Under the pieces are notes generated by a model that made no database searches, was not told where the DNA came from, and saw only the letters and a list, made by a program, of their open reading frames with translations. A stretch of DNA of 64,000 nucleotides from Hellea balneolensis DSM 19091 (GTDB lineage Bacteria > Pseudomonadota > Alphaproteobacteria > Caulobacterales > Maricaulaceae), in assembly GCF_000428525.1 (NCBI RefSeq), contig NZ_AUAC01000002.1, positions 558,001-622,000 on the forward strand, in the 5' to 3' direction. Positions 20,924-26,258 of the stretch are shown piece after piece. The stretch's first letter is position 1; the number at the start of each line of letters is the position of its first letter. A program made the position numbers and the translations under genes.

Positions 20924-23233
20924 ATGTCTCATAAATATTCTCATCTGCTATTAAGCACAGCAGCAACACTCACTTTTACAGCATTACTAACTGCGCCAGC
21001 TATTGCCGCAGACGCACCGACCGGATTGTTTTTGCGCGGGGCTGAGAGCCTGGGTGATCTCTCTAATGCAAAGTCATCATCCCCTTTAGAGGCACCTAAT
21101 GTAGGCGCAGCATGTAATGCTGGCGACGGAGGTGACACGGTTCAATGCGGAATTAACTCAGATGCTTCCGGATCAAGCGCTACAGCTTTAGGCGCAAACA
21201 CAATCGCAAGCGGCGTAGGATCAACCGCTATTGGGAATAATGCAGATGCTGTTGGGTCTCTTTCAACAGCAATGGGCGTTCATTCAAATGCAGGTGGTAT
21301 TGGCGCTAATGCTATTGGTTTGCGAGCAGACGCATCTGGAAATTTTTCAAACGCTATAGGCAGAAATGCAACGGCTTCAGGTACGGGGTCAACGGCTATC
21401 GGACTTGATAGCACGGCGTCTGGCGATTATTCGCAAAGCTTGGGACGAAATGCTGTTGCTTCAGGGGCTACCTCTATCTCGATGGGAGTTGACTCCACTG
21501 CGAGCGCATCCAATTCTATCGCCATCGGTAAAGGGGCGTCATCCACATTTGCTAATAGCGTTGCCATTGGTAATGGCGCAACTGCAACAAGAACCAATCA
21601 AATTGTTTTGGGGAACGCCTCAAGCACCTACACGATGACGGGTATCAACTCAGCCTTTTCACGCGGTCAGCAAGGCGCTGTCACAGGCTTATTAACGACA
21701 GATGCAAACGGCAATTTAGCCTCCGATGGCGGCGCGCTTCAGGCGTCTGTAGCGGATCACGAAGTTCGTATTACGGGCTTGGAAGGCGGCATATCTCAAG
21801 AGATGAAAGACACCGCTAATTTAATGTCAGAACAGGCCACTGTTATTAAATCAGGCGAACTCGCCTCTCAGGAACAGCTCTCTCAGGACGCTGACGGGAG
21901 TCCTGTAGATGCCCCGAATGTTGGAGATGCTTGTCAGGCAGGTGATGGTAGCGATAGCTTGCAATGCGGTGTAAATGCGGATGCATCAGGATCGAGCGCT
22001 ACAGCTCTGGGAGCAAACACTGTTTCTAGTGGTGTTGGATCTATTACCGTTGGCAACAATGCAGATGCTACAGGGTCATTGTCCACAGCGATTGGCGTTC
22101 ATGCCAACACATCCGGTATTGGCGCTACGGCCATAGGTCTTCGAGCTGACGCGTCAGGTAATTTTGCCCAAGCTATTGGCCGAAATGCAAATGCCGCTGG
22201 CGCAGGTGCTACGGCTATCGGCTTAGACAGCACAGCAAGCGGTGATTATGCGCAAAGTTTTGGACGCAATGCTAATGCTTCAGGCCCGGCTTCACTCGCC
22301 ATGGGCGTTGACTCGCAAGCCACAGCTCCTGACTCCATTGCCATAGGTAATGGCGCTTCAGCAACATTTGCGAATAGTGTTGCGATAGGTAATGATGCTA
22401 CGGCAACGCGCACAAACCAAGTTATACTTGGTAGTGCAACAAGTACATATACGCTAGCAGGGGTCACCTCCGCAGCCTCAAGAGGACAGCAAGGTGCTGT
22501 TGTCGGAATTTTGACGACAGATGCCAGTGGCAATATTGCGTCGGACGGAGGTGCTCTTCAAGCTTCAGTTGCCGATCACGAGGTCAGAATCACTGGGCTA
22601 GAAGGCGGAGTCTCTCAAGAGATGAGAAGCTTTGCAGATGATACAGTAACTTTCGCAGATCATTCTACTGCACAAGCAAGTGCAAATTATACAACTGTTA
22701 AAACAGCTTCACCTGTCCAACCCGCACGCTCCGTAGCTGAAGCAGCACCGGCTGAACTTTACGGCTCCAACCTTGAGGTCACGACACAGCAAGGCGCAGC
22801 AAATTCGAGTAATATTGCAACTAATGCAGGCAACATTGCAACTAATGCGCAAAATGTAGCTGTCACCTCCCAGCGTGTAAGCGTCAATTCACAACGTATT
22901 GCGTCAAATGCTACGAGCATTTCTCAAAATGCACAGCGTATCGAATTGGCGATGGGGTCCATCTTGGATAACTCACAAGCGATTGTCAGAAACAGCGAAG
23001 AAATTGCCGAATTAAGCTCAGGCCTTGCAGCCGTAACGGCTCTACCTGATATGTATCTATCGCCAGATGCAAAATGGTCTGCCGCTGGCGGCGTGGGTAT
23101 GTATGGTGATGACGTCGGGATCGGCGCGACGTTGGCCATCCGTGCGAGCCGTAACTTCGCGATTGGTGCATCTGTAGCCTCTGGAGGGGACACGGCAACA
23201 GGCAAATTACAAGTGCGCTATGAGGGATTCTAA
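20924..23233 (+). CDS. Trimeric autotransporter adhesin with duplicated head
   Basis: Adhesin of 769 aa, paralogous to the preceding gene. It has a signal peptide (cleavage near AIAA) and two head units of about 240 residues each (residues 57-294 and 330-567, see repeat entry). Each starts with a Cys pair and ends in a neck (RTNQIVLG..., GLEGG[IV]SQEM). A shorter stalk follows with heptads (SSNIATNAGNIATNAQ) and an anchor nearly identical to that of the first gene, ending RYEGF. AAGAAGGG upstream of the ATG at 20924 is the ribosome site. The pair probably arose by gene duplication with later head expansion. Confidence 0.93.
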   Translation: MSHKYSHLLLSTAATLTFTALLTAPAIAADAPTGLFLRGAESLGDLSNAKSSSPLEAPNVGAACNAGDGGDTVQCGINSDASGSSATALGANTIASGVGSTAIGNNADAVGSLSTAMGVHSNAGGIGANAIGLRADASGNFSNAIGRNATASGTGSTAIGLDSTASGDYSQSLGRNAVASGATSISMGVDSTASASNSIAIGKGASSTFANSVAIGNGATATRTNQIVLGNASSTYTMTGINSAFSRGQQGAVTGLLTTDANGNLASDGGALQASVADHEVRITGLEGGISQEMKDTANLMSEQATVIKSGELASQEQLSQDADGSPVDAPNVGDACQAGDGSDSLQCGVNADASGSSATALGANTVSSGVGSITVGNNADATGSLSTAIGVHANTSGIGATAIGLRADASGNFAQAIGRNANAAGAGATAIGLDSTASGDYAQSFGRNANASGPASLAMGVDSQATAPDSIAIGNGASATFANSVAIGNDATATRTNQVILGSATSTYTLAGVTSAASRGQQGAVVGILTTDASGNIASDGGALQASVADHEVRITGLEGGVSQEMRSFADDTVTFADHSTAQASANYTTVKTASPVQPARSVAEAAPAELYGSNLEVTTQQGAANSSNIATNAGNIATNAQNVAVTSQRVSVNSQRIASNATSISQNAQRIELAMGSILDNSQAIVRNSEEIAELSSGLAAVTALPDMYLSPDAKWSAAGGVGMYGDDVGIGATLAIRASRNFAIGASVASGGDTATGKLQVRYEGF
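21092..22625 (+). repeat. Tandem in-frame duplication of adhesin head (two units, offset 819 bp)
   Basis: Units 21092-21806 and 21911-22625 encode matching head modules, both starting APNVG[AD]AC and ending GLEGG[IV]SQEM. They are exactly 273 codons apart. The DNA has diverged at many third positions, so the duplication is not very recent. Confidence 0.85.
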
Positions 23234-23322: not shown

Positions 23323-23775
23323 ATGGCAATTATAACCTTAGATGATTTACGCGAGACTTCGGGCGCCCTGCTCGGATTGGATCCTGGCACAAAAACTCTG
23401 GGCCTCGCGATTAGTGACCGCACGCGCCTTATTGCAACGCCACTTGAGACGATTCGCCGTGAGAAATTTACGCTCGACGCAAAAAAACTTTTAGACGTTT
23501 ATGAACGCGATCAAGCCTCAGCTCTTATTATCGGCCTGCCTGTCAATATGAACGGCACGCACGGGCCACGCACGCAATCAGTACGAGATTTTTGCACGAA
23601 TTTATTGCGGCTTAAAGACTTGCCCATATTCCTCTGGGACGAGCGCCTTTCGACAATGGCGGTGACACGCGGCATGTTGGAAGCGGATATGAGCCGCAAA
23701 AAGCGCAAAGAAAATGTCGATAAACTCGCCGCGAGCTATATTTTGCAAGGCGTCTTGGATCGCCTGAGGGCTTAA
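23323..23775 (+). CDS. ruvX: YqgF/RuvX Holliday-junction-resolvase-like nuclease
   Basis: RNase H-fold nuclease implicated in 16S pre-rRNA 5' processing. GLDPGTKTLGLAISD carries the first catalytic Asp, IIGLPVNMNGTHG the second block, and LWDERLSTMAV plus DKLAASYILQGVLD the acidic C-terminal block. Length 150 aa is normal. It lies 39 bases upstream of pyrB, probably in one transcript; that gap is almost filled by a perfect inverted repeat. Confidence 0.93.
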   Translation: MAIITLDDLRETSGALLGLDPGTKTLGLAISDRTRLIATPLETIRREKFTLDAKKLLDVYERDQASALIIGLPVNMNGTHGPRTQSVRDFCTNLLRLKDLPIFLWDERLSTMAVTRGMLEADMSRKKRKENVDKLAASYILQGVLDRLRA

Positions 23776-23784
23776 ATCTATTGA

Positions 23785-23809
23785 CTCTGTACGAATTTTT
23801 CGTACAGAG
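23785..23809. promoter_or_regulatory. Perfect 11-bp inverted repeat just before the HTH-PyrB start
   Basis: CTCTGTACGAA (23785-23795), spacer TTT, TTCGTACAGAG (23799-23809), ending five bases before the ATG at 23815. No T-run follows, so it is not a normal terminator. The only ribosome-site-like bases (AGAG, 23806-23809) lie inside the right arm. It can be a DNA operator (possibly for the HTH domain encoded right after it) or an RNA hairpin that hides the start. Confidence 0.7.
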
Positions 23810-23814
23810 CATTT

Positions 23815-24987
23815 ATGACCTATTCCAAACCCCTCATTGATGATATTTTTGGCGGCATTCGTCCTGCGGCGCGCGCTTTGGACAAAGCGGCCACAACTAT
23901 TCAAGGGTGGTACGATGCGGGGACCATTCCTCAAAAACATTGGAATGACGTTATAAAAACAGCCAAAGAGTTTGATCATCATTTAACCCCCGATGACTTC
24001 TTCCCCGTTAAATCGCCTGATGCGTCATCCTTTGGATACCCCTTTGAGAAACGTCATTGCCTGTCCATCGATGATTTCCATAGGCCCGACATAGAAACGT
24101 TACTGTCTCTCGGAGAGCATTATCTGGATTTGAATGTCCAGAAAAACCCTGACCGCTCTGTTCTAAAAGGCAAGACTCTTATCAACGTATTTTTCGAAAA
24201 TTCGACAAGAACCGAAAAGAGCTTTGAGCTAGCTGGAAAACGGCTTGGCGCAGATGTCATATCCATGCAAATCGCGAGCAGCTCAGTCAAGAAGGGGGAA
24301 ACACTTTTGGACACAGCTGCGACGCTCAATGCAATGAATCCAGATATATTGGTTGTCCGCCATGGGTCCTCAGGGGCACCCGCCCTGCTCTCACAAAAGG
24401 TGTCTTGCTCGGTTGTTAATGCGGGGGACGGAATGCATGAGCATCCCACTCAAGCTTTACTGGACGCGCTCACTTTACGCCAAGCTTTTGATGGCCAAAT
24501 TGACGGCCTTCGTATCGCCATATGCGGCGATATTCTTCACTCCCGCGTGGCAAGGTCCAACGTAAAGCTTCTCAATATGCTTGGCGCAGAAGTGCGTCTT
24601 GTGGGGCCGCCAACCCTCCTCCCGACAGATGCGGATCGTTGGGGCGTTGATATATTTCATGAAATGAAAACAGGCTTAAAAGGCTGCGACGTTGTTATGA
24701 TGTTAAGGCTTCAACTTGAGCGGATGAGCGGCGCTTTTGTGCCGTCCAAACGCGAATATTTTCATTTTCACGGACTGGACCGCACAAAGCTCGGCTATGC
24801 CAAAGACGGCGCGCTTGTGATGCATCCCGGCCCGATGAACCGAGGCGTGGAGATCAGCTCAGATATTGCCGACGATCCTGATATCAGCCTGATAACGCAG
24901 CAAGTCGAAACAGGCGTAGCTATGCGAATGGGCATCCTTCACGCCCTTTCAGAAGCCCAAGACAGATCGAAAGGGGCAAACCGATGA
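23815..24987 (+). CDS. pyrB: Aspartate carbamoyltransferase with N-terminal helix-turn-helix domain
   Basis: Catalyses carbamoyl phosphate + aspartate to carbamoyl-aspartate, the committed step of pyrimidine synthesis. The catalytic part begins near residue 78 and has STRT (130-133), HPTQ (210-213), an MLRLQ loop and HPGPMNR (337-343), so it looks active. Residues about 7-63 are extra: [30 protein letters not shown] and LTPDDFF read as a short Cro-like HTH of the kind found in phage-type carph-isopro proteins. No ATG, GTG or TTG occurs in frame between the HTH and the enzyme, so they form one 390-aa chain instead of the usual 300-340. It overlaps the dihydroorotase-like gene by four bases. 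The start-proximal inverted repeat suggests autoregulation. Confidence 0.93.
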
Positions 24988-26258
24988 GCACGTTATCAAT
25001 CGCAAATGCGCGTATCATTGACCCTGCAAGCGGATATGATGATTTCGGGACAATCGTAACTCGTGACGGGCGCATCATGGCTTTCGGGCCGCATGTCCAA
25101 ACGGAAGGCGATATCATCGACGCAGACGGTCACATTTGCGCTCCAGGCCTAATCGATATGCGCGTTACAACGGGTGAGCCAGGTCGGGAAAACCGCGAAA
25201 CGATTGCCACGGCTGCAAAAGCTGCCGCAGCGGGCGGCATAACTTCTATCGTAATTATGCCGGAAACTGACCCCGTCATTGATGATATGTCGCTTGTTGA
25301 TTTCATCACGCGGCGGGCGGAAACTGCGCCAGTGAATGTCTATGCGGCAGGGGCTTTGACGAAAGGCTTAGACGGAAAAACGCTAACGGAAATAGGGCTT
25401 ATGTCGCAAGCGGGCGCCGTCATGTTTTCAAACGGCACCTCCCCCATTGCCGAAGCGCAAACCATGCGCCGCTTGCTTTCTTATTCTGCGAGCTTCAATG
25501 CACTCATTGCGAACCGCGCCATAGAGCCCTCACTCTCAAAAGGAGCCGTGGCGCATGAAAGCGATCTGTCATCACGCTTGGGCCTGACAGGCGCTCCAGC
25601 AGCTGCTGAGCGCATAATGGCAGAGCGGGATGTCGCTCTGGCGGAGCTTACCGGCGGACGGCTTTTGATTGATATGATTTCTTCCGCTGAGGCCTTGGAG
25701 GTCGTGCGCCGTGCTAAATCACGCGACCTTGAAATCGCTTGCTCAGTTAGCATAAATCACTTGTCGCTAAATGAAGTCGATATTGGCGATTACAGAACCT
25801 TCGCCAAACTTGATCCGCCTTTGCGTGAAGAGAGCGACCGTTTGGCGTTGCTCGAGGGTATAAATGACGGCACGATTGATGTGATCGTCTCTGACCATGA
25901 TCCGCGCCCGGCAGGAGAGAAGCGCCTTCCTTATGCTGAGGCCACGACAGGCGCGGTAGGGCTTGAGATATTATTAGCCGCAGGATTATCGCAAGTCGCG
26001 GATGGCCGCTTAGACCTTATGGCGTTCTTGGCAAGCGTGACGTCCAACCCTGCTGCCTTACTAGGATTAGAGAGCGGTCGTATTGCCAAAGGCGCACCTG
26101 CTGATTTGATAATCTTCAATCCAAATGCACCTTGGGTCTGCAATAGTGATGCTCTGCTCTCTCGCTCCAAAAACACTCCGCTGGACGGAAGACGCATGAC
26201 AGGCCGAAATCTCAAGACGATTTGCAAGGGCCGCCTTGTATTTGACTCCTCACACTAA
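24984..26258 (+). CDS. Dihydroorotase-like protein, probably non-catalytic (PyrC' partner of PyrB)
   Basis: Amidohydrolase-fold protein of 424 aa coupled to pyrB by ATGA. The metal-binding HxH of active dihydroorotases is absent ([14 protein letters not shown] has Arg-Val-Thr), although SDHDPR and other late blocks remain. In alphaproteobacteria and pseudomonads such inactive homologues assemble with PyrB into a class A dodecamer and are needed for its activity. The missing ligands and the position next to pyrB fit that role. An active pyrC should exist elsewhere in the genome. Confidence 0.88.

Follow-up and report, generated by a model that had tools for sequence, protein, structure and literature searches.

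The pyrB gene described here lies on the forward strand of a window of 64,000 nucleotides, by which the whole stretch of DNA that was analysed is meant, and constitutes one uninterrupted open reading frame (23815-24987, 390 aa) in which a Cro-like domain precedes an aspartate carbamoyltransferase (ATCase) (Table 1). The sequence-only reading had proposed that a phage-type helix-turn-helix (HTH) segment stood N-terminal to a complete ATCase, and profile searches bore this out. Residues 10-57 matched the carph-isopro family of NCBIfam (carphisopro, NF046037) with 53.3 bits when the whole protein was searched and with 57.1 bits when the N-terminal 81 aa were taken alone, against a curated cut-off of 38 bits, and the ATCase models TIGR00670 and NF002032 covered residues 80-378 with scores of 295.8 and 390.4 bits. 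The ATCase motifs S130-T131-R132-T133, H210-P211-T212-Q213 and H337-PGPMNRG were kept, among them the residues that we take to be catalytic. In Pfam, two ATCase domains were the sole matches above the cut-off, and the head alone gave weak matches to phage regulators in PHROGs (E 0.063 and 0.11).

It had also been held that no start-type codon separates the two parts, which must then form a single chain. For this genome the statement is correct, the only in-frame ATG, GTG or TTG codons within residues 2-130 being TTG22 and TTG106; some relatives do have such a codon between the parts (ATG80 in L004, ATG70 in L005 and ATG75 in L006). None of the family's 12 fused genomes interrupts the frame through both parts, which excludes a stop or frameshift splitting the domains and rules out a local sequencing artefact; a TGA flagged in G005 and G008 was, by codon count, pyrB's own stop. 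The fusion of pyrB with a Cro-like head is real. The fused PyrB was the only protein of its genome above the carph-isopro cut-off, another HTH protein (C2:197387) reaching a weak 24.4 bits, and the fused gene was the only ATCase found in the genome, whose 10-contig assembly is 99.81% complete; a single further ATCase match was 24% identical and, by eye, an ornithine carbamoyltransferase. By gene content, the fused PyrB is the pathway ATCase of the cell, with predicted activity.

Table 1. Features of the fused pyrB locus (window positions).
Feature	Position	Strand	Remarks
ruvX (yqgF)	23323..23775	+	upstream neighbour; no divergent cI before pyrB
TTGACT, -35-like hexamer	23781..23786	+	TTGAC invariant in 11/11 aligned fused pyrB loci
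Palindrome CTCTGTACGAA-TTT-TTCGTACAGAG, candidate operator	23785..23809	.	core TGTACGA-N5-TCGTACA = 23788-23806
TACAGA, weak candidate -10 hexamer	23803..23808	+	16-nt spacer, predicted from sequence
pyrB fusion gene	23815..24987	+	390 aa, Cro-like domain + aspartate carbamoyltransferase
Carph-isopro / Cro-like HTH domain	23842..23985	+	residues 10-57, NF046037
Predicted recognition helix	23890..23919	+	residues 26-35, contains TTIQGW
Linker	23986..24048	+	residues 58-78; most variable among the parts compared
Complete ATCase catalytic chain	24052..24948	+	residues 80-378; NF002032, TIGR00670
Pseudo-dihydroorotase (pDHO), dihydroorotase homologue without any HxH motif	24984..26258	+	start overlaps pyrB stop

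Class A ATCases with a pDHO are of the Pseudomonas type and form a dodecameric PyrB-pDHO holoenzyme; their PyrB carries a short N-terminal extension. The present locus resembles this class, since the gene following pyrB encodes a dihydroorotase homologue that lacks HxH, and a PyrC that does have the motif (DWHVHL) is encoded elsewhere in the genome; it differs in that a DNA-binding-type domain takes the place of the short extension. The head might be a protein-protein or assembly module, replacing the class A extension in a PyrB-pDHO complex and playing no transcriptional part. The pDHO-like protein encoded directly downstream favours this alternative, which the upstream DNA and the other carriers of the domain, discussed below, nonetheless make improbable. 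Upstream of ruvX, a 769-aa open reading frame (20924-23233 of the window) contains repeats resembling, by eye, a trimeric autotransporter.

The palindrome at 23785-23809, already pointed out in the first reading, proved to be exact, with arms of 11 bp around a 3-base centre, and comparison with related genomes tied it to the fusion as a private, conserved site at pyrB. In the window it was unique even at 3 mismatches (mean expected matches 0.00). The TTGACT hexamer stands at position -34 relative to the ATG and is immediately followed by the dyad, and the palindrome ends 5 nt before the start codon, in front of which no clear Shine-Dalgarno sequence was seen by eye. A sigma-70 consensus scan found no promoter and did not pick out TACAGA; if TACAGA served as the -10 hexamer, transcription would begin at about the ATG and the mRNA would be leaderless. 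The palindrome is regarded as a candidate operator. As an intergenic inverted repeat with perfect 11-bp arms, it could also encode an RNA hairpin, acting as an attenuator or as the ruvX terminator; no terminator-like site was called, however.

The sequences upstream of 11 fused pyrB loci (the 10 of the genus and L114) were aligned in order to reveal the conserved footprint. All five columns of TTGAC, all seven of TCGTACA and six of the seven of TGTACGA were invariant, and conservation in the dyad spacer ranged from 0.55 to 0.91. It did not exceed 0.73 in the 16 columns preceding TTGAC, in the pair separating TTGAC from the dyad or in the columns from the dyad to the start codon. The outer arms of the palindrome were not conserved, which speaks against a hairpin, and the core was kept as a sequence. 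In the two fused genomes outside the genus the sites were imperfect, namely TGAACGA..TCGTACA in L114 (palindrome p 0.66) and TGCACGA..TCGTACA in L311, and neither dyad showed a compensatory change that would restore the pair at the altered position. This speaks for a DNA site bound by a protein and leaves the RNA hairpin with very little probability, the least among the alternatives considered here. For the same reason, and because the dyad would lie outside the putative leaderless transcript, binding of RNA by the enzyme, which the sequence-only reading had entertained next to DNA binding, is unlikely.

The core of the site stayed while synonymous sites were saturated, about 80% of them differing among the fused genes (mean pS about 0.80). 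The mean pN and pS values were 0.163 and 0.796 for the head, 0.303 and 0.843 for the linker, and 0.104 and 0.798 for the catalytic part, which indicates purifying selection on the head, weaker selection on the linker and the strongest on the catalytic part.

Every one of the 10 genus genomes contained the motif TGTACGA-N(3-6)-TCGTACA exactly once, 27 nt before the pyrB start, and the roughly 110 nt read before the unfused sisters of the gene (L011-L014) held no such palindrome. A conserved cro-type site that accompanies the fused genes and was not seen before these sisters is difficult to explain by an assembly module. Among unfused PyrB upstream regions, a palindrome at p<=0.05 was found in 1/69 and a TTGAC at -40 to -28 likewise in 1/69; these 69 were drawn from 80 loci of named genomes, L080 having been omitted by choice and 10 having no usable start or stretch.

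Across the order the motif was present in 9/299 genomes. Five of these had N5-spaced sites, three at pyrB fusions and two at RibBA fusions; of the other four, three had a 4-base spacer before small genes that look like the YefM type and one had a 6-base spacer and no such gene. The genes of L153, L154 and L155 read as YefM-type antitoxins and are preceded by TGTACGATACTTCGTACA or its reverse complement, with the 4-base spacer. A control with the pattern reversed matched 22/299 genomes by hand count, against 9 for the pattern itself, so that the rarity of the site proves little on its own and weight has to be placed on its conservation in place. It could be argued that the palindrome is the operator of another regulator and that the fused head is incidental. 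The similar palindrome of the antitoxin-like genes and the weakly scoring HTH protein of the same genome (24.4 bits) lend something to this idea; since the site occurs once per genome, though, such a regulator would have to serve pyrB alone. Together with the co-occurrence of site and head in two unrelated enzymes and the helix comparison given below, this renders another regulator improbable, slightly more so than the assembly module.

In a search of 41 genomes with the whole fused protein, all 10 of the genus (the present one included) matched from residue 1, and in the other 31 the best match began at residue 65-79. An apparent fusion in L080, where a match began at residue 17, was discarded, since its alignment crosses a stop and L080 itself encodes an unfused PyrB. 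When residues 1-69 alone were searched for, 12/137 genomes of the family matched, namely the 10 of the genus and G259 and G711, which belong to another genus and were both read as PyrB fusions. The survey of PyrB N-termini that had been suggested earlier places the fusion in all 10 genomes of the genus and in a small part of the family. A tree of the catalytic part, from which L026 and L028-L030 were left out (4 of 38 intended rows), grouped the fusions, with four changes in all, one of them at the distant L200. That the fusion arose only once within the family was considered and not retained, as the weak forks of this tree do not decide between one origin with losses and transfer.

The origin of the head was approached through its homologues. 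Six phage records matched it. At the top stood Paracoccus phage Psul1, whose Cro-like protein is 43.5% identical over 69 residues (E 2e-8); a further match, with 39.1% identity (E 2e-4), came from a Cro-like protein in Sinorhizobium phage phi2LM21. "Cro-like" is in both cases the name given by the depositors, and each gene is divergent from one annotated as a CI repressor. In 11 of 11 standalone copies from genomes, the longest divergent open reading frame upstream was HTH- or repressor-like by eye, in a set chosen by hand that did not extend to short copies such as L127, L129 and L137. The head is therefore phage Cro-like, as judged by homology to annotated Cro-like proteins. Beside pyrB there is no divergent cI, and ruvX lies upstream in the same direction, so that the locus is read as derived from a cro/cI immunity region and not as one itself.

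The helices of the predicted head stand in the order expected for the five-helix Cro / lambda-repressor-like fold, in which helices 2-3 form the HTH. A full-length model built from PyrBs alone left the head at block pLDDT values of 37-50, and a separate model of the head was therefore made; alignments mixing short Cro domains with PyrBs, tried for the full-length model, were misaligned, to judge from their low identities, and were not used. AlphaFold2 placed helices at residues 4-12, 15-22, 26-35, 40-52 and 59-62, with a mean pLDDT of 71.9 and block values of 81-86 for residues 11-50. Cro proteins (Xfaso 1, N15, hybrid XPH1 and P22) took Foldseek ranks 1-8 and 10, with probabilities of 0.90-1.00 but E-values of only 0.1-1.4, and no match with this model reached E<=0.001 (best 0.1). 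A sequence profile of the head gave no significant match in the PDB (P22 Cro, E 0.29). In the recognition helix, T28, Q30 and W32 did not vary among the 10 sequences aligned (nine from fusions, one from a standalone copy), a pattern that again speaks against a head serving assembly.

The arrangement of the putative promoter recurs at part of the viral cro-like genes. Among 34 of 39 viral standalone loci (five that share the same domain stretch were omitted), 13 had TTGAC at -34 to -37 in the layout of TTGAC, dyad and leaderless start; some of the remaining loci had a related TTG hexamer by eye and others nothing similar. The Cro-like proteins of Psul1 and phi2LM21 thus share with the PyrB head a homologous domain, and the layout is common to 13/34 of its viral relatives; they differ from the fusion in being small standalone proteins beside a divergent CI, whereas pyrB has no cI and carries an attached ATCase, and in upstream stretches that contain no GTAC, unlike the pyrB site. 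A GTAC within 55 nt of the start was found at 6/8 standalone loci with a ..VQ.W helix and at 7/40 without (Fisher p 0.0029), in a comparison of 48 of 52 loci (four identical upstream stretches omitted) that was picked after examples had been seen. The two ..VQ.W exceptions are the named phages, L294 and L295, and for L295 (phi2LM21) the start used by the script differs from the annotated one. Post hoc as it is, this association between helix and upstream sequence weighs against an unrelated regulator at the palindrome.

The search for the domain gave matches in 115/385 genomes, from which 30 loci were read and 60 further places were fetched; NCBIfam served to check the enzyme names of 20 proteins, the others being named by eye. 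The riboflavin enzyme RibBA carries the domain at its N-terminus in one genus of a different family (60.3 bits for L111). GTACGA-N5-TCGTAC precedes the start in 7 of 7 genomes of that genus; the distance, which depends on the start chosen by the script, is 10 nt in six of them and 5 nt in the seventh. One extra site of this kind was found in G234, away from any fusion. To our knowledge, RibBA is no part of any pDHO complex, and its possession of the same head and site in all seven genomes is a difficulty for an assembly function and links site and head in an enzyme unrelated to PyrB. A second PyrB fusion was found in a distant family, in 3/11 genomes; its head is more divergent and, at 38.9 bits, barely exceeds the cut-off. 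TTGCG-N5-CGCAA lies upstream in all three fused genomes and was absent from the 110 nt before the gene in 6 of 6 unfused relatives; the remaining two genomes had distant paralogues only. In addition, an Nnr fusion (G419) has TTGTACGTATTTTACGTACAA before its start (p 0.005).

The private conserved site, the homology to phage Cro, and the RibBA and second PyrB fusions with palindromes of their own favour the proposal of the sequence-only reading that the enzyme is a trigger enzyme acting on its own gene, as the best account of the locus. We estimate at roughly 78% the probability that pyrB captured a phage cro-like gene along with its operator-promoter and so became a self-repressing ATCase. A small cro-like gene of phage origin, bringing its leaderless promoter and operator along, would have landed in frame before pyrB, and the product would be a normal ATCase carrying a Cro-type DNA-binding head. 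This head would bind the operator between the -35 and -10 regions of its own promoter, a position from which it would block RNA polymerase. A firm hold on the palindrome would need paired Cro heads, for which the ATCase oligomer could supply the partner. When abundant, the enzyme would repress its own operon, comprising pyrB and pDHO and possibly plsY-dprA; because the start of pDHO overlaps the pyrB stop, these two genes would be controlled together. The enzyme thus probably switches off its own gene when it is plentiful. Such abundance-dependent autorepression is the simplest account, and the variable linker (pN 0.30, against 0.10 in the catalytic part) makes it at least as likely as the sensing of a ligand; ligand control of the predicted DNA binding is possible.

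Trigger enzymes are established, among them PutA, BirA and NadR. PutA of Escherichia coli is both a proline dehydrogenase and the repressor of putA/putP; its head is of the ribbon-helix-helix type and its pathway is proline breakdown. PutA is reported to bind only between putA and putP (PMC8249747). Like PutA, the PyrB fusion is a metabolic enzyme with a dedicated DNA-binding-type domain, for which control of its own gene is predicted. Unlike PutA, it has a phage Cro-like head and a site laid out as a phage cro promoter, its enzyme is biosynthetic, and heads of its type are also found on unrelated enzymes.

The carph-isopro domain is already curated as an NCBIfam family (NF046037), whose name presumably refers to carbamoyl-phosphate and isopropylmalate synthases; CarA and LeuA fusions were found here among the proteins with the domain. 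A literature search by titles and abstract openings, covering few subscription papers, found no paper that treats this domain, ATCases that bind DNA or enzyme fusions of this sort, and no description of the PyrB or RibBA fusion, of the operator or of a phage Cro origin of carph-isopro. ATCase is the textbook case of allosteric control, and here a phage appears to have endowed it with transcriptional control of its own gene. If this is true, a feedback loop was built in one fusion step, phage cro genes have found a non-lysogenic use, and the fusions are natural enzyme-repressor pairs with predicted operators that are directly testable.

A wider proposition is offered tentatively, at somewhat less than even odds: cro-like genes with leaderless operator-promoters would form a portable negative-feedback plug-in, captured repeatedly before core biosynthetic genes so that each enzyme would repress a single target, its own gene, at least for pyrB (twice), ribBA and nnr, and possibly for carA, leuA, serA, ccr, hisZ, argB and coaBC. 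Heads above the cut-off were found on CarA, Ccr, SerA, HisZ (L215) and LeuA proteins, and heads below it on ArgB, CoaBC, PdhA, TorD, FghA and other HisZ proteins. A significant palindrome (p<=0.05) was present at 8/45 enzyme loci, many of which are close relatives of one another, and at 4/15 standalone loci. Four of the eight hold the sites described here (RibBA L118, PyrB L115 and L117, and Nnr L189); the others are the second PyrB L200, TorD L254 and RibBA L111 and L112, in the last two of which the top-scoring palindrome is CATGTCCGGACATG and not the GTACGA dyad. With 8/45 significant, these statistics were not accepted as proof that holds for the enzyme fusions in general, and no operators are claimed for the Ccr, SerA, CarA, GlmU, ArgB and most HisZ fusions.

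Mitofilin/Mic60-like membrane proteins of Alphaproteobacteria (mostly L165-L194, by eye) also often begin with the domain; their identity was obtained with Pfam in the two proteins tested and assigned by eye in the others. No common operator was seen upstream of the Mitofilin-like loci that were read, so that the domain need not always act as an autorepressor. These carriers, together with the many enzyme fusions lacking a significant palindrome, are what an assembly module would lead one to expect. At pyrB, self-repression through the conserved site is still the preferred reading.

Several further proteins deserve mention. Cro- or YdaS-like heads were noted on Proteobacteria enzymes, including CarA (L195, L227, L237, L240), LeuA (L335, L336), SerA (L197), Ccr (L193, L196, L238), Nnr (L189, L218, L241), HisZ (L206-L210, L215, L216), ArgB (L201-L205) and CoaBC (L211-L214). 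Upstream of the HisZ, CoaBC and TorD fusions, repeated half-sites were seen by eye and are given as leads only, and three TorD-family chaperones with an HTH head (L221, L222 and L223) have common ACAAA-N4-TTTGT palindromes upstream, also by eye. An HTH-like head under the cut-off (25.2 bits) is carried by an S-formylglutathione hydrolase (L134), and in L224 an RstR/DicA-like HTH is joined to prephenate dehydratase.
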